Assembly (NCBI RefSeq): GCF_000171235.2
Contig: NZ_ABEA03000176.1
Location: forward strand, 1 to 64,000
Reading direction: 5' to 3'
Source: Geminisphaera colitermitum TAV2
GTDB taxonomy: Bacteria > Verrucomicrobiota > Verrucomicrobiia > Opitutales > Opitutaceae
DNA: 64,000 bases
Of the stretch, positions 3,456 through 64,000 are shown in pieces; position 1 is the stretch's first letter, and the number at the start of each line of letters is the position of its first letter. Under the pieces are notes generated by a model that made no database searches, had not been told where the DNA came from, and saw nothing but the letters and a program-made list of their open reading frames with translations. A program made the translations under genes and the position numbers.

Positions 3456-5087
3456 ATGCCCACCCGCGGACTCCGCCCCTCGTTATTGCCCACGACGCGT
3501 TCCGGCAACTGGCTCGCCAATCTGACGGCAACGGCGGCCACGTTCGTCAGCACCTTTGCCGGGCTCTGGCTGGGGCGCATTCTTTACACGAGCAATCATG
3601 GGGCGGGTTGGGAGGATGTATTCTGGCCGGAAACAGGATGCTCGCTCGCGCTGGTGGCACTGCTCGGATACCGTCGTCTGCCTTGGATGGGACTGGGCAG
3701 CTTGCTGGCTCTCGCGTGCTTTCATCCGCCATCGTTAGCCTGGTTGCTGGCTCCGCTTTTCATGTGTCAGGCGGGGGTCGGATTGTGGGCCATCCGGCGC
3801 ATCCATCCCAACCCTCAATTGCGGCCCAATGTCCGCTCTTACATTGTGGTGGGCGGGGTGGGGGGGATTTTGGTGGCATTGCCGTCTTCGTTGCTGGGAG
3901 TGATGATCCTGCACGGCTCGCCGTTCGTGCATCCTGAATTGTGGCAAAAAACGTTGATCTGGTGGCTGGGCGAGATGAGCAGCGTGATCGTGTTTGTGAT
4001 GCTGGTGCTGATGCCGTTCTCGGTGGAGGCGCGCGCGGACCGGCGCAGGTTGCCGGAGTTTGTGGTTTATGCGGTGGGGCATCTGGTGGGCGCGTGGTTT
4101 GTCTTCACCGGGGATTTGCACGGCAGTCCGAGCGTGCCGGCGTTGTTCCTGATGTTTTCCGCCAGCATCATGATCGCGCTGCGCAATGGTGTGGCGTTGA
4201 GCATCGTGGCCAATGGGTTGTTTTACCTGGTGTCGATCACGGCGCAAATCACGTGGGCGCTCGGTTCGCCGGCGGATTCGACCAACGGGCCGATCATCTT
4301 TGCCCACTGCCTGATGATCGACGTGATCGTCACCAGCCTGATAACGGCGGCGGGCCTCTTCGACCACCGGCGCGCCGAGAATGAACTGCGCGGCGTCTCC
4401 ACGCGTGTGCTCGATGCGCAGGAAGCGGAACGGCGCAGGCTCGCCCGTGACTTGCACGACAGCGTGTGCCAGACGGTGCAGGCGGTCATCATTCGCATTA
4501 AACTGCTCGCCTTTGAAGCGCAGGCGTCCGGAGCGCTCCGAGGGGGGGGGGGGGGGGGGGACGGCTCGGTGTCGGCGAAGGCGTTGCTGCCGTTAACGAA
4601 GGAACTGGACGAGGCGCTCGACGAGTTGCGGCAGAATATCACGGGGCTGCGCCCGGAGACGATTGATCGCAGCGATTTTGCCGGCATCGTGCGCGACCAT
4701 TGCGAGGAGTTTGCCGGGCGGCATCATGTGAATGTCGAGTTGCTCGATGGCGACAGGCTGCCGGTGCTGCCGATCCGGGTGCGCGAACATTTGTTTCGCG
4801 TGTTGCAGGAGTCGCTCGCCAACGCGGTGACGCACGGCGGGGCGAAATCCATCGAGGTCGAGATGCACTGCGAGCGCGGCAAGTTTGTTTTCACGGTGCG
4901 GGACGATGGTCGTGGTTTCGACCCGGCGATCCAGCGTACAGGCCGTCCGCGTTACGGGTTGCGCACGATGCAGGAGCGGGCGTTTTTGATGGGCGGCGTG
5001 TTTTCCATCGAGTCGCGACCGGACCGGGGCGCACTGGTCACGGTGGAGATTCCGCTCGATCAGATGGCGGCGGTGGGCGGCGGTTGA
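3456..5087 (+). CDS. Membrane histidine kinase (MASE1-like sensor, HisKA_3, HATPase)
   Basis: Sensor kinase of 543 residues. The N-terminal ~300 residues contain about eight hydrophobic segments with the look of a MASE1 integral-membrane sensor (FWPETGCSLALVALL). The dimerisation and phosphoacceptor box AERRRLARDLHDSVCQT places the phosphorylated histidine at H334. The ATPase domain has an N-box (ESLANAVTHGGAK), a G1 box (DDGRGFDP) and a G2 region (YGLRTMQERA). A run of 19 G (4542-4560) encodes six glycines between the H-box and the ATPase domain, so a one- or two-base slip would remove the ATP-binding domain. It is likely the partner of the regulator at 2444. The stop is 3 bp from the convergent diguanylate cyclase. 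Confidence 0.92.
   Translation: MPTRGLRPSLLPTTRSGNWLANLTATAATFVSTFAGLWLGRILYTSNHGAGWEDVFWPETGCSLALVALLGYRRLPWMGLGSLLALACFHPPSLAWLLAPLFMCQAGVGLWAIRRIHPNPQLRPNVRSYIVVGGVGGILVALPSSLLGVMILHGSPFVHPELWQKTLIWWLGEMSSVIVFVMLVLMPFSVEARADRRRLPEFVVYAVGHLVGAWFVFTGDLHGSPSVPALFLMFSASIMIALRNGVALSIVANGLFYLVSITAQITWALGSPADSTNGPIIFAHCLMIDVIVTSLITAAGLFDHRRAENELRGVSTRVLDAQEAERRRLARDLHDSVCQTVQAVIIRIKLLAFEAQASGALRGGGGGGDGSVSAKALLPLTKELDEALDELRQNITGLRPETIDRSDFAGIVRDHCEEFAGRHHVNVELLDGDRLPVLPIRVREHLFRVLQESLANAVTHGGAKSIEVEMHCERGKFVFTVRDDGRGFDPAIQRTGRPRYGLRTMQERAFLMGGVFSIESRPDRGALVTVEIPLDQMAAVGGG
4542..4560 (+). repeat. 19-nt G homopolymer inside histidine kinase
   Basis: An uninterrupted run of 19 G lies in the coding region between the phosphoacceptor and ATP-binding domains. 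The kinase is in frame at this length. Tracts like this are known slippage sites in other bacteria; whether it varies here cannot be seen from one sequence. Confidence 0.9.
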
Positions 5088-5090
5088 GGT

Positions 5091-6011
5091 TTACGCCGCG
5101 ACGAGAGCGCCGGCGGGGGCGAGGACCACGCGGTTGCGCCCGGCGTGCTTGGCGGCATAGAGTGCCTGGTCGGCGGCGGCAAAAAGCGCGGCCACCGTGT
5201 TTTCGGGTTGCGGGCGGCGCAGCCCGGCGACGCCCGCGCTGATGGTGACGGAAAGTCCTGGAAAGGGGGCGGGCGTGATGGGCGACGCGGCCACGGCGGC
5301 CACCATGCGGACGGCGATGTGCCGGGCGGCTTCCTGGTCGGCCCCGGCGAGTAACACGGCAAATTCCTCGCCCCCGAAGCGTCCGATGCGGTCGGAGGCG
5401 CGCAGGGCGGAGCGCAGGCGGGAGGCGACTTCCCGGAGCACGGCGTCGCCCGCGGCGTGACCGCGGGTGTCGTTGATCGTCTTGAAGTGGTCAATGTCGC
5501 ACATGACGAGCGAGAGCGGGTGTCCGAGGAGGCGGGCGCGTTCGAGTTCGTCGGCGAGGAGTCGTTCAAATTCGTGCCGGTTGTTGAGCCCGGTGAGTGT
5601 GTCGTGCGTGGCACGGAGGCGCAGTTGCGCGAGCGTGTCGCCCAGACGCAGCGCGTAGCGGAGGGAGCGTTCGAGGGCGGCGGGGTTGATTTCGCCTTTC
5701 ACGAGGTAGTCGAGTGCGCCGGAGTCGAGCGCCTCGGCATCGACGCGGGCGGAGGTTTCGGCGGTGAGAAACACGATGGGCGTGGGGCAGCCGCGCGCCA
5801 TGGCTTCGCGCAGCAGGGCGAGGCCGTCGCGGGGGCCGAGTTGGTAGTCGAGGAGGCAGGCGGCAAATTCGCCGCTGAGCAGGCGGGTCAGGCCGCTTTC
5901 GTAGTCGGGTGCCCATTCGACGACAAATCGTTCGCGGCGGAAGGCGGTGAACATTTGCGCAATCACGCGTGATTGCAGGCGGTCATCGTCGATGAGGAGA
6001 ACTTTTCGCAT
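5091..6011 (-). CDS. Response regulator diguanylate cyclase (REC-GGEEF)
   Basis: Makes cyclic di-GMP from two GTP under control of an N-terminal receiver domain. The receiver has the acidic triad at 8-10 (IDDD), the phosphoacceptor D55 in CLLDYQLGP and a K105 equivalent in YLVKGE. The GGDEF domain starts near 135 (ATHDTLTGLNNRHEFE) and has an intact GGEEF active site at 213-217. RASD at 204-207, five residues upstream, is a canonical RxxD inhibitory I-site, so product feedback is expected. It is convergent with the kinase at 3456 and may belong to the same signalling module, but no sequence evidence links them. Confidence 0.95.
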   Translation of the reverse strand: MRKVLLIDDDRLQSRVIAQMFTAFRRERFVVEWAPDYESGLTRLLSGEFAACLLDYQLGPRDGLALLREAMARGCPTPIVFLTAETSARVDAEALDSGALDYLVKGEINPAALERSLRYALRLGDTLAQLRLRATHDTLTGLNNRHEFERLLADELERARLLGHPLSLVMCDIDHFKTINDTRGHAAGDAVLREVASRLRSALRASDRIGRFGGEEFAVLLAGADQEAARHIAVRMVAAVAASPITPAPFPGLSVTISAGVAGLRRPQPENTVAALFAAADQALYAAKHAGRNRVVLAPAGALVAA

Positions 6012-53094: not shown

Positions 53095-53378
53095 CTCTTC
53101 CTGAGAGGTAACTCTGCGGAAAAACATTTCAGAAATTACGCAACTCGCTAAAAAACAGCCAGTAACGGAATTATAAAAATTTAGATGTTTTTGGCGAGAG
53201 TTCGGAAGGCAGTAGGAAAATTACTCCCGGAAGCCTGAATTTGGGGCTTCGGAGGCCCTGCCATTTAAAATGTCGGATTGATTTTTTGGGAAGAATCTCC
53301 ACGCTGTTTTTCGTCAAACAAAGCACCGGGGCCGAGGCCAATAGGATCGCCCTCCCACCATCCAACCGGAGGTTTTCC
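53095..53378. other. Region between tRNA-Pro and recombinase
   Basis: A 284-bp gap, AT-rich compared with the flanks. No gene is seen. It may contain an attachment site, but no second copy of the tRNA 3' end is present in the window. A good ribosome binding site (CGGAGG, 53367-53372) precedes the recombinase ATG at 53379 and decides that start over the longer open frame from 53241. Confidence 0.5.
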
Positions 53379-55187
53379 ATGTCAGCGATCCATGACCGTA
53401 TCCTTGCGTCTGCGCTCGGCGCAGCCCCTGTTCCCGTGGCGATCTACGCGCGCGTTTCCACCTTCAATCAAATTGGCGGCCGCTTCGATTCCTGCGGAAG
53501 TCAGGTGGCGATCTGCCGCGACTATCTCCAGAAGCACGTCGGAGAGGGCTGGTTCGAGGCGGCCTGTTTCACCGATCCGGCCTACTCGGGCGGCACGCTG
53601 AACCGCCCAGGCATTCAGGCGCTGATGCGCCGGATCATGCTGGAGGAGATCAAGGTCGTCCTCATTTTCAAACTTGAGCGCCTGCTGCGCAGCACGGACG
53701 AATGGGTGCCGTTGCGCTCTTTTCTGGAAAAGCACAATTGTCAGCTGGTCAGCGCGACGGAAGACCTTTCGGAGGAAACGCCTTCGGGACGTTTGAAGAA
53801 CAACCTGCTGGTCAGCGTGGGCGAGTATGAACGGCTCAACACCAGCGCCAAGGTCCGCGCCAAACTCATGGAACAGGCCAAGCGCGGCTTCTGGTCCTGC
53901 GGCCTCGTTCCCTTCGGCTACGACTACGACACCGATTCGAAGATGCTTTTTCCCCACCCGGAGGAGGCACCGATTGTCCGCCGGATTTTCACCGAGGCGG
54001 CCCGGCTTGTCTCGCTGACGGACATTGCCAATGCGCTTTCCGCCGAAGGCATTCGCACGCGCCGCCGGCTCTACAAGCAACGCGACGGCAACCGGCGGGA
54101 GGTCGGTGGCGTGCGCTTCAACAGCTTTGTCCTGCGGCGCATGATTGGCAATTCGATCTACGCCGGGCAGGTGCGGATGCGCGGGGAGCGTTTTCCGGGC
54201 CGGCACGAGGCGCTGGTGTCCGCCGAACTATGGGAGGAAGCCAACGCAGCGGCCAACAAGCCGGTTGTTGCCCGCCGTCGGCAACTGCGATCCTCGGACA
54301 AGCATTTTCATCTGCTCAAGGGGGTGGTCCATTGCGGCTGCTGCCAGCGCGCGATGATTCCCGACGCCAGCGGCAAGCGTGGTCCGGATGGCAAGCCCTA
54401 CCGCTATTACACCTGCTGCCACCTGCATAAAGAGCGCACCGACTCGGTCTGCCCGGTGCGGCGTGTCTCCGCCGCCGGCTTGGAAGCCGCCTATATCGGT
54501 TTCCTCGGCGAATGCTGCCGGCATCCTACCATCCTCGCCTCCGCGATGGAGTTTTCCCGGAAACACAGCGGGACGCAGCAGGCATCCGTGCGCGCGGCCC
54601 TGGCCGAAACCGACCGGGCGCTGGCCGAACTCGACCGGCACCTGCGCAATTTTGCCGAAGTCGTCACGGCGGGCGGCCTTGACGTGCTCACCGAGGAACT
54701 GCGCGACCGGGCAGTTGCCCTGCGCGAGGAAAAACAACAAAAACTCGTCAAACGGGAGCGCCTGCGGCAGGATCTTGCCGCCTGCGAAGAGAAAGCCCCG
54801 GACACCGAGGCCATTCGCCATGCTTTGGAGCGGTTCAACCACGTATTTCCGACCTTGGAACAGGAACAGCAACGCGACTTCGTCACCCTGATTACGGATC
54901 GGATTGAAATCCGTCCGGCGGCCTGGTCGTCGCTGCGCACGGAAGGCACCGGACACAAGTTGCCCGGCCGGGCCTTTTCGCTGCGGGTCAAACTCCACGT
55001 TCCTAACCTCGTTGAAGGCATGGGAGATGGTATGATGGTCGAAGCGCCGTGTCGCGGCCAGTCGAACAAGTTTCTGACGCTGGAGACGTCGATTGTGGTC
55101 AACAACATGAACGCTGCCACGCCGGTGGTTCTTCTGACCCCTGATCTGCGGCTCCTGCGCATCGCCCGGAAATCGGCGGGAGTGTAG
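53379..55187 (+). CDS. Large serine recombinase, 3' end altered by IS5
   Basis: A site-specific recombinase, 602 residues as given. The resolvase domain has the catalytic serine in VAIYARVSTFNQ and LIFKLERLLRS; the recombinase domain (GLVPFGYDYD, IRRIFTEAARLVSLTDIANAL, LRRMIGNSIYAGQ) and a zinc ribbon (GVVHCGCCQRAM, YYTCCHLH, CPVRRV) follow, then a coiled coil (VRAALAETDRALAELDRHLRN). The stop codon is the TAG of the IS5 left end (GTGTAG), so the original C-terminus has been lost or replaced. It probably mobilised the island on its right. Confidence 0.9.
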   Translation: MSAIHDRILASALGAAPVPVAIYARVSTFNQIGGRFDSCGSQVAICRDYLQKHVGEGWFEAACFTDPAYSGGTLNRPGIQALMRRIMLEEIKVVLIFKLERLLRSTDEWVPLRSFLEKHNCQLVSATEDLSEETPSGRLKNNLLVSVGEYERLNTSAKVRAKLMEQAKRGFWSCGLVPFGYDYDTDSKMLFPHPEEAPIVRRIFTEAARLVSLTDIANALSAEGIRTRRRLYKQRDGNRREVGGVRFNSFVLRRMIGNSIYAGQVRMRGERFPGRHEALVSAELWEEANAAANKPVVARRRQLRSSDKHFHLLKGVVHCGCCQRAMIPDASGKRGPDGKPYRYYTCCHLHKERTDSVCPVRRVSAAGLEAAYIGFLGECCRHPTILASAMEFSRKHSGTQQASVRAALAETDRALAELDRHLRNFAEVVTAGGLDVLTEELRDRAVALREEKQQKLVKRERLRQDLAACEEKAPDTEAIRHALERFNHVFPTLEQEQQRDFVTLITDRIEIRPAAWSSLRTEGTGHKLPGRAFSLRVKLHVPNLVEGMGDGMMVEAPCRGQSNKFLTLETSIVVNNMNAATPVVLLTPDLRLLRIARKSAGV

Positions 55188-55216: not shown

Positions 55217-55708
55217 GTGATGGAGAATGTCAGCATGGCGAAAGATCAACACCGTCACGACATTTCGGACCGAGTTTGGAGCGTTCTGGAGCCGCTGCTA
55301 CCTGGAAGGAAAGGAGCGTGGGGAGGGGTGGCGGAGGACAACCGCAAGTTCCTCAACGCGGTTCTGTGGATTTTACGCACTGGTGCGCCTTGGAGGGATC
55401 TTCCAGAGGATTACGGAGGGTGGGGCAACACGCACAGGCGTTTTTGTCGCTGGAGAGACAAGGGGCATTGGGAGCGCCTGTTGTCGGAACTGATGAACGA
55501 GCCCGATTTTGAGTGGCTCATGATTGATGCCAGTCATGTCAAAATCCATCCGCATGCAGCGGGAGCCAGAGGTGGAAACGAGGCGATCGGTCTGACAAAA
55601 GGGGGCGAAACACCAAACTACATTTGGCCGTGGATGCGCATGGTATGCCGGTGCGAGTCATTGTTACAGCGGGTTCCACGGCTGATTGCACACAGGCTGG
55701 CAGGTTGA
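55217..55708 (+). CDS. IS5-family transposase, ORF A (copy B)
   Basis: The same protein as the copy at 11692 apart from one substitution (GGWGNTHRR instead of GGWSNTHRR). It contains the first catalytic aspartate in EWLMIDASHVK. The full transposase needs frameshifting into ORF B. Confidence 0.9.
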   Translation: MMENVSMAKDQHRHDISDRVWSVLEPLLPGRKGAWGGVAEDNRKFLNAVLWILRTGAPWRDLPEDYGGWGNTHRRFCRWRDKGHWERLLSELMNEPDFEWLMIDASHVKIHPHAAGARGGNEAIGLTKGGETPNYIWPWMRMVCRCESLLQRVPRLIAHRLAG

Positions 55709-56010: not shown

Positions 56011-56304
56011 GTCCGTGAAATTGACCTCGGTCCCAAATACTCGCCGCAAAATGTGTGGGTAGGATTTCAGATCGTCTTCCAGTATCCGTTTGCGGACGTG
56101 TATCCGCATTATTTCCCGGCCGAACTTCGCAGGACAGACGGAAACGGTTTGGGCGAAGGGTTTCACGCCAACAACACCTTCACACGGCCCTCGGGCAGCG
56201 AGACTGCCATGATGGTATCCCGCCGTTCCAACAAGCGCGATCCGGCGACGGAGACCGCAGCCATTAAATTAGCCAAAGTCATTGATTGGATCCGTTCCCG
56301 ATGA
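56011..56304 (+). pseudogene. E2-like (UBC-fold) protein, 5' end removed by IS5
   Basis: About 97 codons remain, opening directly at the IS border (VREIDLGPKYSPQNVWVGF). VGFQIVFQYPFADVYPHYFP resembles the P-rich beta-strand segment of prokaryotic E2-like proteins, followed by GEGFHANNTF and an aliphatic C-terminal helix (ETAAIKLAKVIDWIRSR). The catalytic cysteine is not visible and may have been in the missing part. The stop overlaps the next start (ATGA), showing an original operon with the JAB-E1 gene. The E2 call rests on local pattern plus this neighbour. Confidence 0.5.
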
Positions 56305-57669
56305 AAACTCACGAGTTTCGTATTTCGCAGGTAATGTTTGATGAGCTTAGCGCTCATCTCTTCCCCGGTGACCATGATGAACATGGCGCCGTAATCGCTG
56401 CCGGCATCTGCCGCAGCAAACGAGGAACCCGTTTTCTTGCCCGTAAGTTATTTCTTGCACGCGAGGGGATTGACTATGTCCCAAGTAAATATGGTTATCG
56501 CGCGCTTAGCGCAGAATTCGTGGCCCGCGTTTCGGGTTACTGCTCGCAGCACAAATTGGCTTACTTCGCCATTCACTGTCACGGTGGCCGTGACGAAGTG
56601 GCCTTTTCTAGTGTGGATTTGGAGTCCCACAAACGTAGCTACCCCGCACTCCTTGATATTACCGAGGGAGTTCCGGTCGGAGCACTGGTATTTGCGACCA
56701 ATGCAGTCGCTGGAGAAATCTGGACGCCAGACGGAATCGAGCGGTTAACCAGCATGGTTATTGTTGGGATGAACCATCGCCGACTTTACCCGCAGTTACC
56801 CCGCGTTCCCGAGGTGCTAAGTGAAATATATCATCGGCAGTCGTTGCTTTTTGGAGCCCGAGGACAAGCGATTCTAAAAGGCACCAAGGTCGGAGTGATC
56901 GGCATGGGCGGTGTTGGCTCCCTCGTGAGTGAGTGGTTGGCACGTCTCGGTGTTGGGGAGATAGTCGCCATCGACTACGACAAGTTGGAGCCAAGCAACC
57001 AATCCAGAGTCATGGGAGCCCGCTGGTGGGATGCGCCGGAATTTTTGCTGAATTCACGCCTTCCGCTTTTGAGAAAACTCGGCACAAAACTCTCGACCTA
57101 TAAAGTCAGTATCGGCGAGCGTGTAGCGCGAGCCGCGAATCCACGCGTCAAATACCAAGCGATTATTGGCAGCATCGTCACCGAGGAAGTCGCGCTTCAA
57201 TTGAAGGATGCGGATTACATCTTTCTGTGCGCAGACTCGATGCAGAGTCGGCTGGTTTTTAATGCATTGGTGCATCAGTTCTTGGTTCCTGGGGTGCAGA
57301 TCGGTTCGAAGGTTTCCGTTGATCGAGACACCGGCGACATTACTGACATTTTCTGTGTTACGCGCCCGGTGCTACCTCAAGCGGGAGGAGGGTGCCTGTG
57401 GTGCAATCAACTGATCTCTTCCAGCAAACTCCAGGAAGAGGTCATGTCCGTCCGATCAATTGAAGCGTCAGCAGTATGTCACGGACCCCGTGGTGAGCGC
57501 ACCAAGCGTCGTGACGCTCAATGCCGTTGGCTCTGCCCAGGTCGTAAATGAATTTTTTTTATCGATGGTGGGGCTTCACGACGATGATGGCACCACCATC
57601 GGAGGCCGACTGGCTTCGCCAAGAGCTCGCAAATGGGTGAAAGTGGCAAACTCACATGAGCCAAATTGA
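56301..57669 (+). pseudogene. JAB protease-E1 (ThiF) fusion, frameshifted near its 3' end
   Basis: The N-terminal ~150 residues form a JAB/MPN-type isopeptidase domain with DEHGAVIAAG and the metal motif AIHCHGGRDEVAFSSVD (HxH...SxxD). A ThiF/E1 adenylation domain follows: KVGVIGMGGVGSLVSEWLARLGVGEIVAIDYDKLEPSNQSR, then YIFLCADSMQSR and GCLWCNQLI. The first frame then goes wrong after LQEEVMS (near 57445-57456). The expected continuation, QLKRQQYVTDPVVSAPSVVTLNAVGSAQVVNEFFLSMVGL, is in the +1 frame and ends at 57669. Such fusions adenylate a ubiquitin-like protein and also process it. Confidence 0.78.
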
Positions 57670-57880: not shown

Positions 57881-59349
57881 TAGTCGGTGCTGAGGAAGGG
57901 CGGTATTAAGCGAGTTTGAAGCATGGCGAGGTGCGCAAGGCGGGAAAAAGCGCGAGCAGAAGGCGGGAAAAAAAGGCCAAAAGAAAAGCCAGGAGCTTTC
58001 CGAAGTTCATCGCGGCGGCGCTGAGGATGGCATTGACCTTGTCTCCGATCAATCCGCGTAACTTGTTGCGCTCCATACGACGTTCATTCTTGAGATGTCC
58101 GATTGCCGGCTCAATGGCGGCACGGCGTTTCATCCAGCGCCAGACTCGTTTGGGGATTTTCCCTCGCCTGCGTTTGTCCACGATCACCTCCACCGGCCCC
58201 TCATAATTGTGCCCTCGATAACCCATGTCCACGTGCGCCGTTTTCGACCCCTGTTTTTCAATATAGAGCCGTTTTACCTGCTCCATTTGCGCTTCAAGCG
58301 TGTGCCCATCATACGGATTGTCTGGCATACATAACGCTCCCAACAGCCAACCTCCCTTGCTCGTCGATGCCACACTTACCTTCTGTCCAAATTCATATTT
58401 CTTTCCCGATTTCCCTTTCGATATGCATTCCACCTTTGGCTCATGCACACTATACACTTTGTTTTTGTCTGCTGTCTTTTGTTTGTAAATTTGCTTGCTC
58501 GTCTCCAGCAACCCTTGCAATGCCGCCACAGGCTTTTGTCTCTCTATCTCTCGTATCACACGGCCCAGATTCGTCCTCAGTTTCCTGACACATGCCTTCG
58601 CTCTCTTCATCTTTCGGCTATGCATATAGCGCCCGGCCATCATCAATAATCCCCTCCCTACCCGTTCATAACTCTGCTTCACTTTCAGCCCGGCTTTCCG
58701 CGCTTCCTTCACCAGCCTCTCCCTCGCCCGATCATACGATCTCGCATCGGTCGGATAATAACGTATCTCCTCGGTTTGCACCGTCGTGTCAACGTTGATA
58801 TGCACCACCTGCACCGGCTTTAACCCCTTCATCCTCACCGCGCTCTCTATCGTCTGCTTGAGCATCTGTTCGGCTCCACTCTCCCCCAATCTCTTCCTCC
58901 ACCTCGTCATGCTCGACGAGTCTATCGGCTTCTCATGCTCAAAATACTGCCTCCCCGATAAATATTGCCAATATGGATTCTCCACCCAATGCTCCAGCAC
59001 CTCTTCGTCGCTCAGATCATATTGATACTTCAAATAGTGTAACGACACCATCAACCTTGTCCCCAACCCGGGCTGCCCCAACCTCTCATGATACGTCGGC
59101 CCCAAATGCTTGTCAAACTCGGCCCAGTTTATATTCCCGGCCAGCTTCACCATCGGATGGTTCATGTTCACCAACATTATTAACTCCATCTTGAACATTT
59201 CCCTCTGTCTCTCGTGCTTGTTTTCCTTTGGCTTCATCTTTTTCCCAGATTTTCTTTATAAATTGCCCTTTTCTGGGAAAATCTCACTCCAGTCTCAAGC
59301 GTTAAATTGCTCCTTGATAGGAAATTAAATGGTTCTTCAGCACCGACTA
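57881..59349 (-). mobile_element. IS5-superfamily insertion sequence
   Basis: The ends TAGTCGGTGCTGAGGAA (57881) and the complement of TTCTTCAGCACCGACTA (to 59349) are imperfect inverted repeats. It carries one transposase gene on the minus strand. TA at both borders may be part of the repeat or a 2-bp target duplication. It separates the ubiquitin-like remnant from the restriction cassette. Confidence 0.85.
57906..59237 (-). CDS. IS5-superfamily DDE transposase
   Basis: 443 residues. The N-terminal domain has INWAEFDKHLGPTYHERLGQPGLGTRLMVSLHYLKYQYDLSDEEVLEHWVENPYWQYLSGR (DUF772-like); catalytic residues are likely D in VVHINVDTTVQTE, D in TAHVDMGYRGHNYEG and E in RAAIEPAIGHLKNERRMERNKLRG. 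The frame appears intact. GC content is below that of the surroundings. Confidence 0.92.
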   Translation of the reverse strand: MKPKENKHERQREMFKMELIMLVNMNHPMVKLAGNINWAEFDKHLGPTYHERLGQPGLGTRLMVSLHYLKYQYDLSDEEVLEHWVENPYWQYLSGRQYFEHEKPIDSSSMTRWRKRLGESGAEQMLKQTIESAVRMKGLKPVQVVHINVDTTVQTEEIRYYPTDARSYDRARERLVKEARKAGLKVKQSYERVGRGLLMMAGRYMHSRKMKRAKACVRKLRTNLGRVIREIERQKPVAALQGLLETSKQIYKQKTADKNKVYSVHEPKVECISKGKSGKKYEFGQKVSVASTSKGGWLLGALCMPDNPYDGHTLEAQMEQVKRLYIEKQGSKTAHVDMGYRGHNYEGPVEVIVDKRRRGKIPKRVWRWMKRRAAIEPAIGHLKNERRMERNKLRGLIGDKVNAILSAAAMNFGKLLAFLLAFFSRLLLALFPALRTSPCFKLA

Positions 59350-59407: not shown

Positions 59408-61279
59408 TCAAAACCTAAATCCTTCTTCTTCCGAATAGCTCGATGCTGTGACGACGGTCTCTAAAAGCTGGGCCATGTAGGCTACTAATTGTGATAGATC
59501 TGTCGAACCATCATCACTAGGGATCAATCCGAACGCTCCGACACCGGGCCCGGGATTTGAATCCCGGTATTGAGAGTCTATGTGACGGACAAAAATTTCT
59601 GGCTGTGCTTGTCCCGGATATAGAATGAAACTGCCGCGTGTGCCCAAGAGTGCATCACGGTAACCATGCATCGTGTGGAGATCTTCACCCTTATATGCAT
59701 GGGTTTCTTTGTCGTTAGCATCCAAGGCAGCTCTCCATTTGGTGATATCCAATCTATATTTTGCATCGAAATGTACCCAGTGAGTCATCTCTTTACACCG
59801 AATTTCAATACTGAAATCAGGATGGAATAACGTGGAGTAAGATTCTGTCCAGTTTTTGCTTGAGGAGTCGATACGCCAAAAATTACGGTTGTAATAGAGG
59901 TTCACGACAACCGGCACTTCTGAATATGTGCATGGATACTTTACCGCCGAACCGGTTCCTTTTTTAAGATCCACCCGGTAGTCCTTTTCCGTGATGATAT
60001 GGCTCAATGTTGGACGACCTTCACTCTTGCAGGTAGCTTCGATAGCTTTGCGAAGTTGGAAGTAGCACCACAACTCGTATAAATCGTGGACCGGCTTTAG
60101 GTCTCCCGATGTTGGGTCGTATTCCCCCACTGTCGTATTGAGGAGCAGACCGAAATCGAACACCAAGATGTTGCGGACGAAGTCCCGATATCCATGTCTC
60201 CGTTGCAATGTCATGGAGTTGGGCAAGGAGTCTGTGTAACCGACATTCTCCCAGAGGGGATTTTGCAAGATCTCCTCCAGTTCTCTCGACCACCGGGCGA
60301 GCGCAACATGTGTTGCTGCATATTTCTCAGGGATTCTGAGGTCGAGACTCGCGATGCGAGCGTGAAGCAAGCGAAGCGATGTCTTTACGAATCGATTTTC
60401 GATGGTGTCGTAAGTCCTCTCGATTGTATGGGCCGGCATCAGCTCCGGGGTGAATCCGCGAAAGACAGCGGCCAGAGGCCCATCTGGCTGCCATTGGCAA
60501 TCTGCTGGATTAGCCGCCATCTCGACGAGATCCGGATCCGTCACAAAGGCGAGGGGATTGGTTTTACGGTGGTTCCTATACTTGAAATGCGGTTGGGACA
60601 GGATCGCGGCCATCGACTGAGGAAGGCAGGATTCCCGGAAAAGGCGCCGCAGATGGAATATCTGCATTTGGTCCGATGCTGCCTGATCCAAGTTTTCCCG
60701 CAGGACAACCTCGGTCGCCCCATCCATATTCAAAATGATCTCCGCATGGATGTCTGCCAGCTGCTCAAGCAATTTTTGGAACTCGGTTTCATACCCGATC
60801 TTGGTAGAGACAACATCCACCAAGAGCTCGATGCCCAACCCATCGACAAATGATAACTCCGCCTTGCCCGCATAACCACGAAAATTGATTCTCCCCGTCA
60901 GGCGATATCGTCCGCCGGGGAGGACGGTGCATGCGTCTTCCCCATTAAATGAAAGTGAATTCGCAAGTTTATCCGCCCTGAATGGATAAACCGGATTGGT
61001 CGCCCTCTCGCGAGCAATCGCCTCCTCACTCGAGCGAAGCGTCGCGGTGAAATCATACTCGGTGTTCTCCCGGAGCCGTACGGGTTCGAACAGGCCGATT
61101 TCCGTATCTTCGATCGCAAGCGGCGGTATGGCTTCCCCCTCAACGCCTGCATCGCGGACTGCGATCCCTGCGATGCCGGGAATGGGAAAGGGGGGGGCAG
61201 CCGCTCGCGAACCGCTGTTTGGTGCCAACGTTAACTCGCTGGCTCCTGTCCGTAGGGAGATTTTGGCGACGGGGATCAC
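59408..61279 (-). CDS. DUF2357/PD-(D/E)XK nuclease, McrC-like partner
   Basis: 623 residues. The N-terminal and middle parts match the DUF2357 layout (EVVLRENLDQAASDQMQIFHLRRLF; HTIERTYDTIENRFVKTSLRLL). The C-terminal nuclease domain (PDDEXK_7-like) has LFHPDFSIEIR and THWVHFDAKYRLD, giving the D...DxK catalytic pattern. It overlaps the ATPase stop by 4 bp (ATGA), so the two are translationally coupled, as McrB and McrC are. It is expected to be the cleavage subunit of a restriction complex; target specificity is unknown. Confidence 0.85.
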   Translation of the reverse strand: MIPVAKISLRTGASELTLAPNSGSRAAAPPFPIPGIAGIAVRDAGVEGEAIPPLAIEDTEIGLFEPVRLRENTEYDFTATLRSSEEAIARERATNPVYPFRADKLANSLSFNGEDACTVLPGGRYRLTGRINFRGYAGKAELSFVDGLGIELLVDVVSTKIGYETEFQKLLEQLADIHAEIILNMDGATEVVLRENLDQAASDQMQIFHLRRLFRESCLPQSMAAILSQPHFKYRNHRKTNPLAFVTDPDLVEMAANPADCQWQPDGPLAAVFRGFTPELMPAHTIERTYDTIENRFVKTSLRLLHARIASLDLRIPEKYAATHVALARWSRELEEILQNPLWENVGYTDSLPNSMTLQRRHGYRDFVRNILVFDFGLLLNTTVGEYDPTSGDLKPVHDLYELWCYFQLRKAIEATCKSEGRPTLSHIITEKDYRVDLKKGTGSAVKYPCTYSEVPVVVNLYYNRNFWRIDSSSKNWTESYSTLFHPDFSIEIRCKEMTHWVHFDAKYRLDITKWRAALDANDKETHAYKGEDLHTMHGYRDALLGTRGSFILYPGQAQPEIFVRHIDSQYRDSNPGPGVGAFGLIPSDDGSTDLSQLVAYMAQLLETVVTASSYSEEEGFRF

Positions 61280-63009
61280 GCAAAATAGTTGGTGAATCCC
61301 AAACTTTTCAACGTGCCAAGCATCGTATCGATCTTCGTCGTCGAAAGCAGCAATTTGTTAGCCGCCGAATACTTCGAGAGCTCGTCAAGAACAGCTAGGA
61401 TTTGCGAACGATTGCCGTGCAATTTCGGAAGCACTTTTTGCATGCTCAGCCGGTCGAGGATCGCCTCATCTTCGGCAAATTTTCCCGGATGCTTCCCTAT
61501 GGTGGCCAGCTTCCTACTCGCGGCAATGTAGCGGTGGCATTCGGTGGTCACGCGGGGACCGAATCGATAGCGGCCAAGGAGCGCGTAAATAGCGTCGAGT
61601 TTCTCATCAAAGCTCCTGTCGGGCTCGTTCGTCCTGCCCTTCAGAAGGAATTGGGCGAGTTCCTTGGCATCAATCGCGGAGCGGTCTTCTTCCGGCAAGG
61701 CGAAGGATGTCCCCGTCTCCGACGGCTTGATCGCCGGGCACTCCAAGACAAATGCGCGATCCAGCACTTTCGGTGAGAACATGTGGGTCGTCTCGTCTAC
61801 ATTGACTGTGCCGATGATGAAGACGTTGCGCGTCAGGAACAGTCCCCTCTGATCCAGCGCCGACTTGGCGTAGGTCGTCACGACTGGGTCGCTCATGCTC
61901 GCTGCGTGCAGGAGCTCCAACTCGTATTCTCCCAGCAGCGATTCCGGCGCACTCCCTGCCGTTTCCATGACAGACAGGAACCGAGAAAAATACATTTCCA
62001 CGTGAGAGAGATTCATTTCATCCAAGATTACGAAGAACGGGATGGATGCATAATCAGGATAGTTAGCCTTGAGAAGCAACTGAATGAGCGGGGTAGAACT
62101 GTAGGTCTCGCCGCTTTTCCCGAACGGATTTTTATAGCCCAAGAGATGTCGTCCGTCCATCCAGCCGGCTTCAACGGGGATAAAGACATGATTGAACGAG
62201 TCCGGCACGCCATCGGGTTTCAGGTTAGATGCGAGCTGTCGGGCGGTCATGGTTTTTCCCGTCCCAGTCGGTCCAGATATGATGACAAACGGCTTTGCGG
62301 CCAAGGCGGTAATCAGGGTGGTGCTCACCGTGGCAGTCCGTGGTGATAACACGGCTACTGGTGGTTTCTCGTATTCGACAGTAAGGCCTTCTAGCCAGTC
62401 ATGAAACTGCTTCGGCGAGATCGCCAACGTGTCATGAAATCCATAGAATGCGCATTGTTCGTAAAAATCGCGCAGGAATATATATCCTTCCGCGGGCTCT
62501 TTCCATTCGGTTTTTTCCAGTTTGAGTTTGAGAAGTCTTTTGGCGAGCGGACCAATTTGGAGCTCTCGAAAAAGCGGGGCCAAATTATAAGGAACCTCCG
62601 TTGCTCCGTTTTTTACAGTACACAGTCCCATGGATCCCATGGAATAAACAAGATTGGTGAAGACTTTCTCACCGTAATCCTCGCGCCTGAGAACTCCCTG
62701 CATCTCTGCGGTTCGCGATCTTGCCAAGCCCGTGATCAACGTATGGTGGCTGAAAATGATCGAGATGAAGGTGAGCGCTCGAATAGCTTGGGGACCCATT
62801 GCCCGGACCTCATTCCAGAGCTCGGGCAGCCTGTTGCTTGCATCTGCCGATAGCATGTTAGCCACTTGGGAATCGGCAAGGCGCACATCCTCAATCTGCC
62901 CCCCTAAATTCGAAAGAACTTGATCTGCAGGAACGGCTTCCAGCACCTTGGCCACTTTGAAATAGCCGTTTTTGGTCAAAGAGACAATGAGATTTTCTAG
63001 TCCGGGCAT
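61276..63009 (-). CDS. McrB-like AAA+ NTPase
   Basis: 577 residues. The N-terminal ~200 residues are a helical domain I do not recognise, possibly for DNA recognition. The AAA+ core has Walker A ISGPTGTGKTMTARQLA, an insertion with EAGWMDGRHLLGYKNPFG, Walker B FFVILDEMNLSHVEMYFSRFLSVME and a sensor region GTVNVDETTHMFSPKVLDRAFVLE, all McrB-type. It sits 4 bp after the methylase stop and overlaps the nuclease start, so all three genes form one transcript. The role inferred is nucleotide-driven translocation and activation of the nuclease. Confidence 0.9.
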   Translation of the reverse strand: MPGLENLIVSLTKNGYFKVAKVLEAVPADQVLSNLGGQIEDVRLADSQVANMLSADASNRLPELWNEVRAMGPQAIRALTFISIIFSHHTLITGLARSRTAEMQGVLRREDYGEKVFTNLVYSMGSMGLCTVKNGATEVPYNLAPLFRELQIGPLAKRLLKLKLEKTEWKEPAEGYIFLRDFYEQCAFYGFHDTLAISPKQFHDWLEGLTVEYEKPPVAVLSPRTATVSTTLITALAAKPFVIISGPTGTGKTMTARQLASNLKPDGVPDSFNHVFIPVEAGWMDGRHLLGYKNPFGKSGETYSSTPLIQLLLKANYPDYASIPFFVILDEMNLSHVEMYFSRFLSVMETAGSAPESLLGEYELELLHAASMSDPVVTTYAKSALDQRGLFLTRNVFIIGTVNVDETTHMFSPKVLDRAFVLECPAIKPSETGTSFALPEEDRSAIDAKELAQFLLKGRTNEPDRSFDEKLDAIYALLGRYRFGPRVTTECHRYIAASRKLATIGKHPGKFAEDEAILDRLSMQKVLPKLHGNRSQILAVLDELSKYSAANKLLLSTTKIDTMLGTLKSLGFTNYFA

Positions 63010-63013
63010 GGCG

Positions 63014-64000
63014 TTATTTTTTTCTGGCCGTAATCAGGCACTCCTTAACGTTGCGTTGCCGATCATTCCGACGACCCATTGTCATGTGAATATGATCGAA
63101 GTCAACCACTTCAATCTTGTAAGATTTTCCCAAGATGTTGCTTGCGATGGACTCAAGCTCGCTCAATCCTATCATCCCAGTATTGCTGTAGCTGAGGACC
63201 AGATTCGAGCCTGAACTCTGAATTCCCCGAAACATGTCAGCAAAGGCGCCGCGCACCTGCGTTTGGATGCAGAAAGGGGATTGGTGACGGTATTCGCGAT
63301 ATCGACCCTTCACGAATTTCCCCTTTTCCCGTTGAATGGGTGGAAAGTCATAAAGAACCAAGGTTTCCAGCGCGTGGTAAAACCGGCTGTAGTGGACGAA
63401 ACAGTAAGGCGGATCAGCGTAAACGGTAGCAGGCGGGATGCTGGCCAGGCATTCTTTGTAGTCCAACACGGAAATGGCATGTGGATGGTCCGGTGCTCGC
63501 GTGGGTAGGGCAGCAAAGGCAACCGAGTATTTTTTTAGGAAATAATCTCGCAAGCTGCGTGCGCGATAGACCGCGATGTCTAACATGGAGGATTGAGAAG
63601 TGGCGTTGCGGAATTGAGCGTAATGCCCCGTCCCTTGGCTGACGTATGCCATCGCGTGCATGAGCGAGGTGAGAATGACAGGGTAAAAAGGCTGCTGCCG
63701 ATGTTGCTCTGCAACCTCTCGTAAGGCGTCAATCCACAGGCATTGCTCTGCGGACCACCAGGTGCCCGCGTAATATTTTGTAAAAAGATGGTAGTGATAG
63801 CCGAACGTAGCATCCACGAGTTGCCGGTTGCGGTCCTCGCAGGCATTGAAGTCTGAGATTGTCCGGGTGTGCCGGGTTGAATCCAAATCTTCAGGGAGGT
63901 ACCCGATTCGCTCGTTCACGAGAGCCTCGGCGGCTGATACAATCTCCTCGGGCGAGCCTCCCGTGCTGTTTTCCCGATGTGCGGTAAGGTAGGCGGCGGC
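63014..64000 (-). CDS. D12-class adenine-N6 DNA methyltransferase, 5' end beyond window
   Basis: The frame stays open to the right edge, so the N-terminus (including the FxGGK SAM motif expected for the class) is outside. The visible 328 codons hold the catalytic motif ATVYADPPYCFVHYSRFYH (DPPY, adenine-N6 type) and NLVLSYSNTGMIGLSELESI, with a C-terminal DFDHIHMTMGRRNDRQRNVKECLITARK, as in Dam/D12-type enzymes. It is first in the cassette with the ATPase and nuclease and likely protects host DNA. Confidence 0.85.
   Translation of the reverse strand, partial: AAAYLTAHRENSTGGSPEEIVSAAEALVNERIGYLPEDLDSTRHTRTISDFNACEDRNRQLVDATFGYHYHLFTKYYAGTWWSAEQCLWIDALREVAEQHRQQPFYPVILTSLMHAMAYVSQGTGHYAQFRNATSQSSMLDIAVYRARSLRDYFLKKYSVAFAALPTRAPDHPHAISVLDYKECLASIPPATVYADPPYCFVHYSRFYHALETLVLYDFPPIQREKGKFVKGRYREYRHQSPFCIQTQVRGAFADMFRGIQSSGSNLVLSYSNTGMIGLSELESIASNILGKSYKIEVVDFDHIHMTMGRRNDRQRNVKECLITARKK

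Follow-up and report, generated by a model that had tools for sequence, protein, structure and literature searches.

The end of the window (the whole stretch of DNA analysed here, 64,000 nucleotides) carries the operon M-B-C, all three open reading frames of which lie on the minus strand according to the ORF listing. The features discussed below are the following.

63014..64000, minus strand: M, gene of a D12 (alpha-class) N6-adenine DNA methylase, running past the window edge (PF02086, motifs)
61276-63009, minus strand: B, a novel N-terminal domain (NTD) fused to an McrB-like AAA+ motor with an NxD motif, 577 aa (sequence matches and motifs)
62335..63009, minus strand: proposed target-recognition domain, the NTD of B, approximately residues 1-225, with conservation reaching residue 215 or so (unmatched by sequence in Pfam and the PDB; model; found with other motors elsewhere)
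61279..62334, minus strand: AAA+ motor of B, with Walker A GPTGTGKT (246), Walker B FVILDEMN (326) and NxD motif GTVNVDE (400)
59408..61279, minus strand: C, McrC-like subunit with a GTG start, DUF2357 at residues 128-367 and PD-(D/E)XK at 400-557
57906..59237, minus strand: transposase (DUF772 and DDE_Tnp_1 by Pfam), 170 bp downstream of C, given as context and outside the system

The window covers positions 1-64000 of contig C50; the 5' end of the methylase gene, which it lacks, was recovered from that contig. The full gene is intact and occupies contig positions 63014-64285 if it starts at an ATG, or extends to 64321 if it starts at a TTG. M contains the motifs KYMGSK, DLFAGS and DPPY, and while the fragment in the window scores 18.4 bits against the Pfam D12 model (PF02086), below its cut-off of 22 bits, the whole gene on the genome reaches 39.8 bits and thus exceeds it. 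A preliminary description of this DNA had reported three tightly coupled genes, with a 4-bp gap followed by an ATGA overlap; the 4-bp gap between M and B is indeed present, but the second junction reads GTGA, since C starts with a GTG that overlaps the stop codon of B. The catalytic residues of C are intact (PD at 487-488, DAK at 505-507), and, judged from its sequence, the three-gene operon is intact, with open frames and catalytic motifs present. These open frames and motifs also argue against the least probable of the alternative readings, namely that this copy of the system has lost its function and M acts as an orphan methylase, which could be favoured by the transposases on both sides and by the fact that, unlike in Roseibium, no upstream HTH gene is apparent at this locus.

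The Roseibium plasmid in question carries the order HTH-M-B-C, with identities of 51% (M), 50% (B) and 34% (C). When 84,980 genomes were scanned once with B as the query, ten loci were obtained, belonging to Planctomycetota, Proteobacteria, Bacteroidota and Nitrospinota, and wherever the flanks of a full-length B relative can be read, C is present together with a same-family M of 49-55% identity to the M of the window; the contig of L043 ends inside B, so that no C is readable there, and the M of L042 is cut by a contig end. The trio sought across genomes is therefore found with its genes kept together in close relatives, from which we conclude that their adjacency in the window is not due to chance; this contradicts the possibility, raised in advance as a refutation, that M belongs to a different operon upstream.

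Near the cassette lies a large serine recombinase (Resolvase, Recombinase and zinc ribbon; 53241-55187, plus strand), and transposases are located at 55217-55708, 57906-59237 and approximately 65267-66405 of the contig, together suggesting a mobile region. Among the transposases, 56286-57551 (plus strand) encodes a protein of 421 aa that combines a ThiF/E1 domain (2e-21) with an N-terminal part looking JAB-like by eye, and which is possibly another defence or ubiquitin-like-conjugation gene. Elsewhere, the genome encodes two further D12 methylases, equal in score and each with a frame of 244 aa (G000:C71:3378-4040 and G000:C207:17991-18653).

Motor and nuclease subunits of McrBC type

Pfam, motifs and matches to McrB and McrC bear out the combination of a D12-class methylase, an McrB-type motor and a DUF2357-PD-(D/E)XK nuclease. 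Within the PDB, the best sequence match of B is E. coli McrB, albeit a weak one (phmmer 9.4e-4 to 6hz4). The motif GTVNVDE of B corresponds to NxD and not NxxD, and its relatives read GTVN[VIM]DETT. Passages of the CoCoNuT census set the NxD branch of McrB apart from NxxD and describe it as often linked to DNA methyltransferases (PMC11090510). GTVN[VIM]D together with a DUF2357 nuclease recurs in 20 further loci of the window's own phylum, a 5mC-type methylase pattern was observed upstream in 7 of these, and plasmids of Rhizobium and Thauera carry an SPPF-motif methylase with a motor and nuclease of this kind. As such motors and nucleases stand beside different methylases, the chassis is common and the methylases vary.

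C matches DUF2357 (1.8e-34) and PDDEXK_7 (5.1e-30) in Pfam, and across seven relatives there is no variation in the PD and DAK residues. Because the model of C is of low confidence overall (pLDDT 63), we used it for two observations only: four McrC structures rank at the top (Z 11.0-11.4, the next match having 6.9), and a region ahead of DUF2357 tentatively resembles a beta-sandwich. B also matches the PADLOC model PDC-M26A (8e-35), a name that appears in no paper found by our literature search; the best stretch of this match lies in the AAA region and it was not taken as a family assignment.

With the branch covered by the census (PMC11090510, in part), the operon has in common the NxD motif and, in C, an N-terminal region resembling a beta-sandwich, which would fit an RNA-targeting or abortive system like the CoCoNuTs, with M only monitoring or regulating. 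We consider this very unlikely, given that passages of the same census separate the methylase-associated NxD homologues from the CoCoNuTs (PMC11090510) and that Pfam revealed no RNA-binding domain.

The N-terminal domain and its methylase partner

The NTD, of about 215 residues, has no Pfam match and no PDB sequence match. Modelled from 11 relatives (pLDDT 87.7), it is predicted to be mostly helical, and VIA-align ranks BrxA (Z 7.5), the DUF1819-like Magnetospirillum protein 3bhw (Z 7.0) and SspB (Z 5.9) as best matches, all with Z below 8, where a match may reflect a common arrangement only. Foldseek returned no significant match of the model in the PDB or among viral models, and a profile comparison with DUF4007 gave no sign of homology (hhalign probability 0.1%). 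In defence systems based on modification, BrxA and SspB have been described as DNA-binding modules with an HTH (PMC12839542); due to the Z scores below 8 and the negative DUF4007 comparison, common descent of the NTD with them is not claimed. The FokI, B3 and BpuJI DNA-binding folds are not among the fold matches, an observation that excludes nothing.

Whole genomes and viral contigs were searched with profiles, which uncovered further settings of the NTD. The domain is rare, each sample having it in approximately 1% of its genomes or less (the genome that served as centre is counted in several of the tallies); McrB-type queries retrieved no NTD relatives from IMG/VR, and a match in G1215 turned out to be a Lon protease and thus a false positive. 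Across several phyla, the NTD gene adjoins the same M family in 14 out of 15 scorable loci (L046 runs into a contig end). The engines to which it is joined comprise NxD McrBC, canonical NxxD McrBC, Septu PtuA/PtuB (three loci) and a DndB/DGQHR protein. In Mariniflexile, L045 shares 75% identity in the NTD and 71% in M with L043, and its M is nested in the group of L043 with 100/99 support in the tree; the motor of L045 is canonical NxxD (MNTSD), and no significant similarity links its second subunit to the nuclease of L042. L054, L064 and L099, the last a viral contig, encode M followed by an NTD-PtuA ATPase fusion and a PtuB-type HNH protein, with best PADLOC matches to PtuA of 4e-45, 5e-44 and 1e-43 and PADLOC matches to PtuB of 3e-50, 6e-39 and 4e-43, respectively, and in L057 the NTD is fused to a DndB/DGQHR region; in all four loci a same-family D12 methylase lies immediately upstream of the NTD. 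The exception is L047 (7962-9297), in which a stand-alone NTD is convergent with an MT-A70 methylase instead of M, and no motor or nuclease was recognised near it.

Additional genes accompany two of these loci. In L064 (4113-13399), the NTD-PtuA/PtuB pair has a GHKL ATPase and two further ORFs after it and, before it on the other strand, a patatin-like phospholipase. L057 encodes, after the NTD-DGQHR fusion, a 441-aa protein of no known family (4157-5482), a candidate nuclease or effector.

The identity matrices of NTD and M correlate across 13 loci (Mantel r=0.89, p 5e-5), which fits both a common DNA target and direct binding between NTD and M, with a contribution from shared descent. Taken together, comparison of these sequences shows a conserved linkage of NTD and M combined with exchange of motors and nucleases. 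The proposal of the preliminary description that specificity may lie in the ATPase's unrecognised N-terminal domain gains from this, as the NTD stays with M across exchanges of motor and nuclease, and the NTD is most likely the target-recognition domain of B.

Predicted recognition site and proposed mode of action

Three close M relatives without an adjacent NTD gene pair with BglII-family endonucleases, whose matches to PF09195 have values of 1.6e-42, 5e-40 and 1.4e-39. These methylases are from L048 and L098, with 46-50% identity, and from L049, with 41%. A 207-aa ORF of L048, considered as a candidate NTD, proved not to be one. The BglII-paired methylases do not form one clade, L098 being nested with the Roseibium and gamma NxD methylases at 97/97 in the tree, and an alignment of 17 methylases with five kinds of partner contains 79 invariant columns. 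BglII recognises AGATCT and BstYI recognises RGATCY, and enzymes of this family cut unmodified sites. Because close relatives of M pair with such enzymes, our best guess, drawn from the partner enzyme family only, is that M would recognise a GATC-cored site of the RGATCY or AGATCT type.

The same pairing bears on the possibility of a Type IV, modification-dependent McrBC, in which the NTD would read adenine-methylated DNA and the methylase would be a neighbour or decoy. Its McrBC-like motor and nuclease would suit such a system, yet with a cognate methylase encoded in its own operon it would be led to self-cleavage, and the M family is also paired with BglII-family enzymes, which are cutters of unmodified sites. 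DUF3578, YTH and EVE domains were not found by Pfam, and even with the precedent of the McrB of T. gammatolerans, which reads m6A (PMC7680126), we regard this reading as highly improbable.

The reading we prefer, with a probability of roughly 70%, is a restriction-modification system on an McrBC chassis, in which M marks a site and the NTD reads the unmarked site and directs the attached nuclease. M would methylate adenine in a short, putatively GATC-cored site, and the NTD of B would bind the same site when unmethylated. B would form an AAA+ ring of the McrB type, C would activate this ring by way of DUF2357 and cut the DNA with its PD-(D/E)XK domain, and host sites would be protected by M. 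NTD and M would thus act as one specificity cassette, fitted by evolution to several nucleases. We infer the activity and site of the methylase, DNA binding by the NTD and restriction of unmodified DNA. The protective-modification logic put forward earlier is supported, with M conserved beside B and C. Among known systems, the McrB-like subunit of LlaJI alone sets specificity (PMC1459862), and PcaI, composed of a methylase, an AAA+ protein and a DUF2357 nuclease, restricts unmethylated DNA in vivo, acting against phage and plasmid (PMC8989522).

The chief rival places specificity in M itself: the NTD would be an adaptor that docks motor and nuclease onto M, and the complex would both mark and restrict in the manner of Type I or Type III systems. 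The tight co-variation of NTD and M and their adjacency in nearly every locus are compatible with this arrangement, and an M-NTD-motor complex would also explain the swapping of engines. However, M relatives occur beside a self-sufficient BglII-type enzyme with no adjacent NTD, the NTD is also found with the unrelated MT-A70 methylase, its predicted fold moderately resembles DNA-binding HTH modules, and in the related LlaJI specificity sits in the McrB-like subunit (PMC1459862), so that we consider docking onto M rather unlikely.

Novelty, implications and comparison with known systems

The preliminary description had supposed that an adenine methylase with a DUF2357 nuclease might represent an undescribed type of defence. 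This does not hold, considering that the methylase-associated NxD branch has been named in passages of the CoCoNuT census (PMC11090510), that PcaI has been tested in vivo (PMC8989522), and that the conjugative E. coli plasmid pTE_T100_3 (L050), which carries two D12 adenine methylases beside a LlaJI-family nuclease and an AAA ATPase, is an adenine-type LlaJI-like system. The operon is a variant of the LlaJI/PcaI kind, whose precedents have cytosine methylases, and its new part is the NTD of the motor. The literature searched, with many subscription papers outside its scope, contained neither an NTD-methylase cassette that recurs with different engines, among them Septu, nor anything relevant on Septu with a methyltransferase; the passages of the census likewise describe no common NTD-methylase cassette and no exchange with Septu (PMC11090510).

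Beyond the single operon, we lean, with somewhat less confidence than for the operon itself, towards the NTD and the D12 methylase being a portable self/non-self cassette with one reader per mark, joined to at least four engines, with the BglII-type enzyme as a fifth partner of M. If so, Septu and McrBC would be interchangeable restriction-modification effectors and the reader a reusable target-recognition domain, touching on the open questions of how defence nucleases gain sequence specificity and what Septu senses. The findings suggest a restriction-modification role, with a known self-mark, for some Septu loci, and the recognition site would be predictable from the partner enzyme family. 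A reader that stays with one methylase across several engines also offers a direct test, in which the domain is moved between engines and it is asked whether the mark is still protective.

Type IV McrBC systems differ from the operon in having no cognate methylase and a methyl-binding N-terminal domain, whereas the window has a methylase and, by Pfam, no such domain. For BrxA and SspB (DUF4007), the fold match to the NTD is moderate (Z 7.5 and 5.9) and lacks sequence support. PtuA and PtuB of Septu are absent from the window operon, and only in the relatives L054, L064 and L099 are the same NTD and M attached to PtuA- and PtuB-like proteins. Type II systems of the BglII/BstYI family share the D12 methylase family, there beside a PF09195 endonuclease, but consist of a single self-sufficient endonuclease, with no motor and no NTD gene beside M.

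The methylase-associated NxD branch of McrB, as far as passages of the CoCoNuT census describe it, shares with the window the NxD motif, DNA methyltransferases and an extra domain in the McrC homologue, and is announced by the census for later work (PMC11090510). The operon fits McrBC-like Type II systems of the LlaJI/PcaI kind, since the window has a methylase in the same operon, an McrB-like motor with an N-terminal extension and an McrC-like PD-(D/E)XK subunit. LlaJI of Lactococcus and Helicobacter likewise combines methylase, McrB-like and PD-(D/E)XK subunits, restricting unmethylated DNA with specificity in the McrB-like subunit (PMC1459862); it differs in its two 5mC methylases, asymmetric site and B3 domain, compared with the single D12 methylase and the NTD of the window, which is predicted to be mostly helical. 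The NTD has no Pfam match, and B3 is absent from the fold matches of its model. PcaI of Pectobacterium has, like the window, one methylase, an AAA+ protein and a DUF2357 nuclease, but methylates cytosine (5mC) at CCNGG (PMC8989522), whereas the methylase of the window is of the D12 adenine class.
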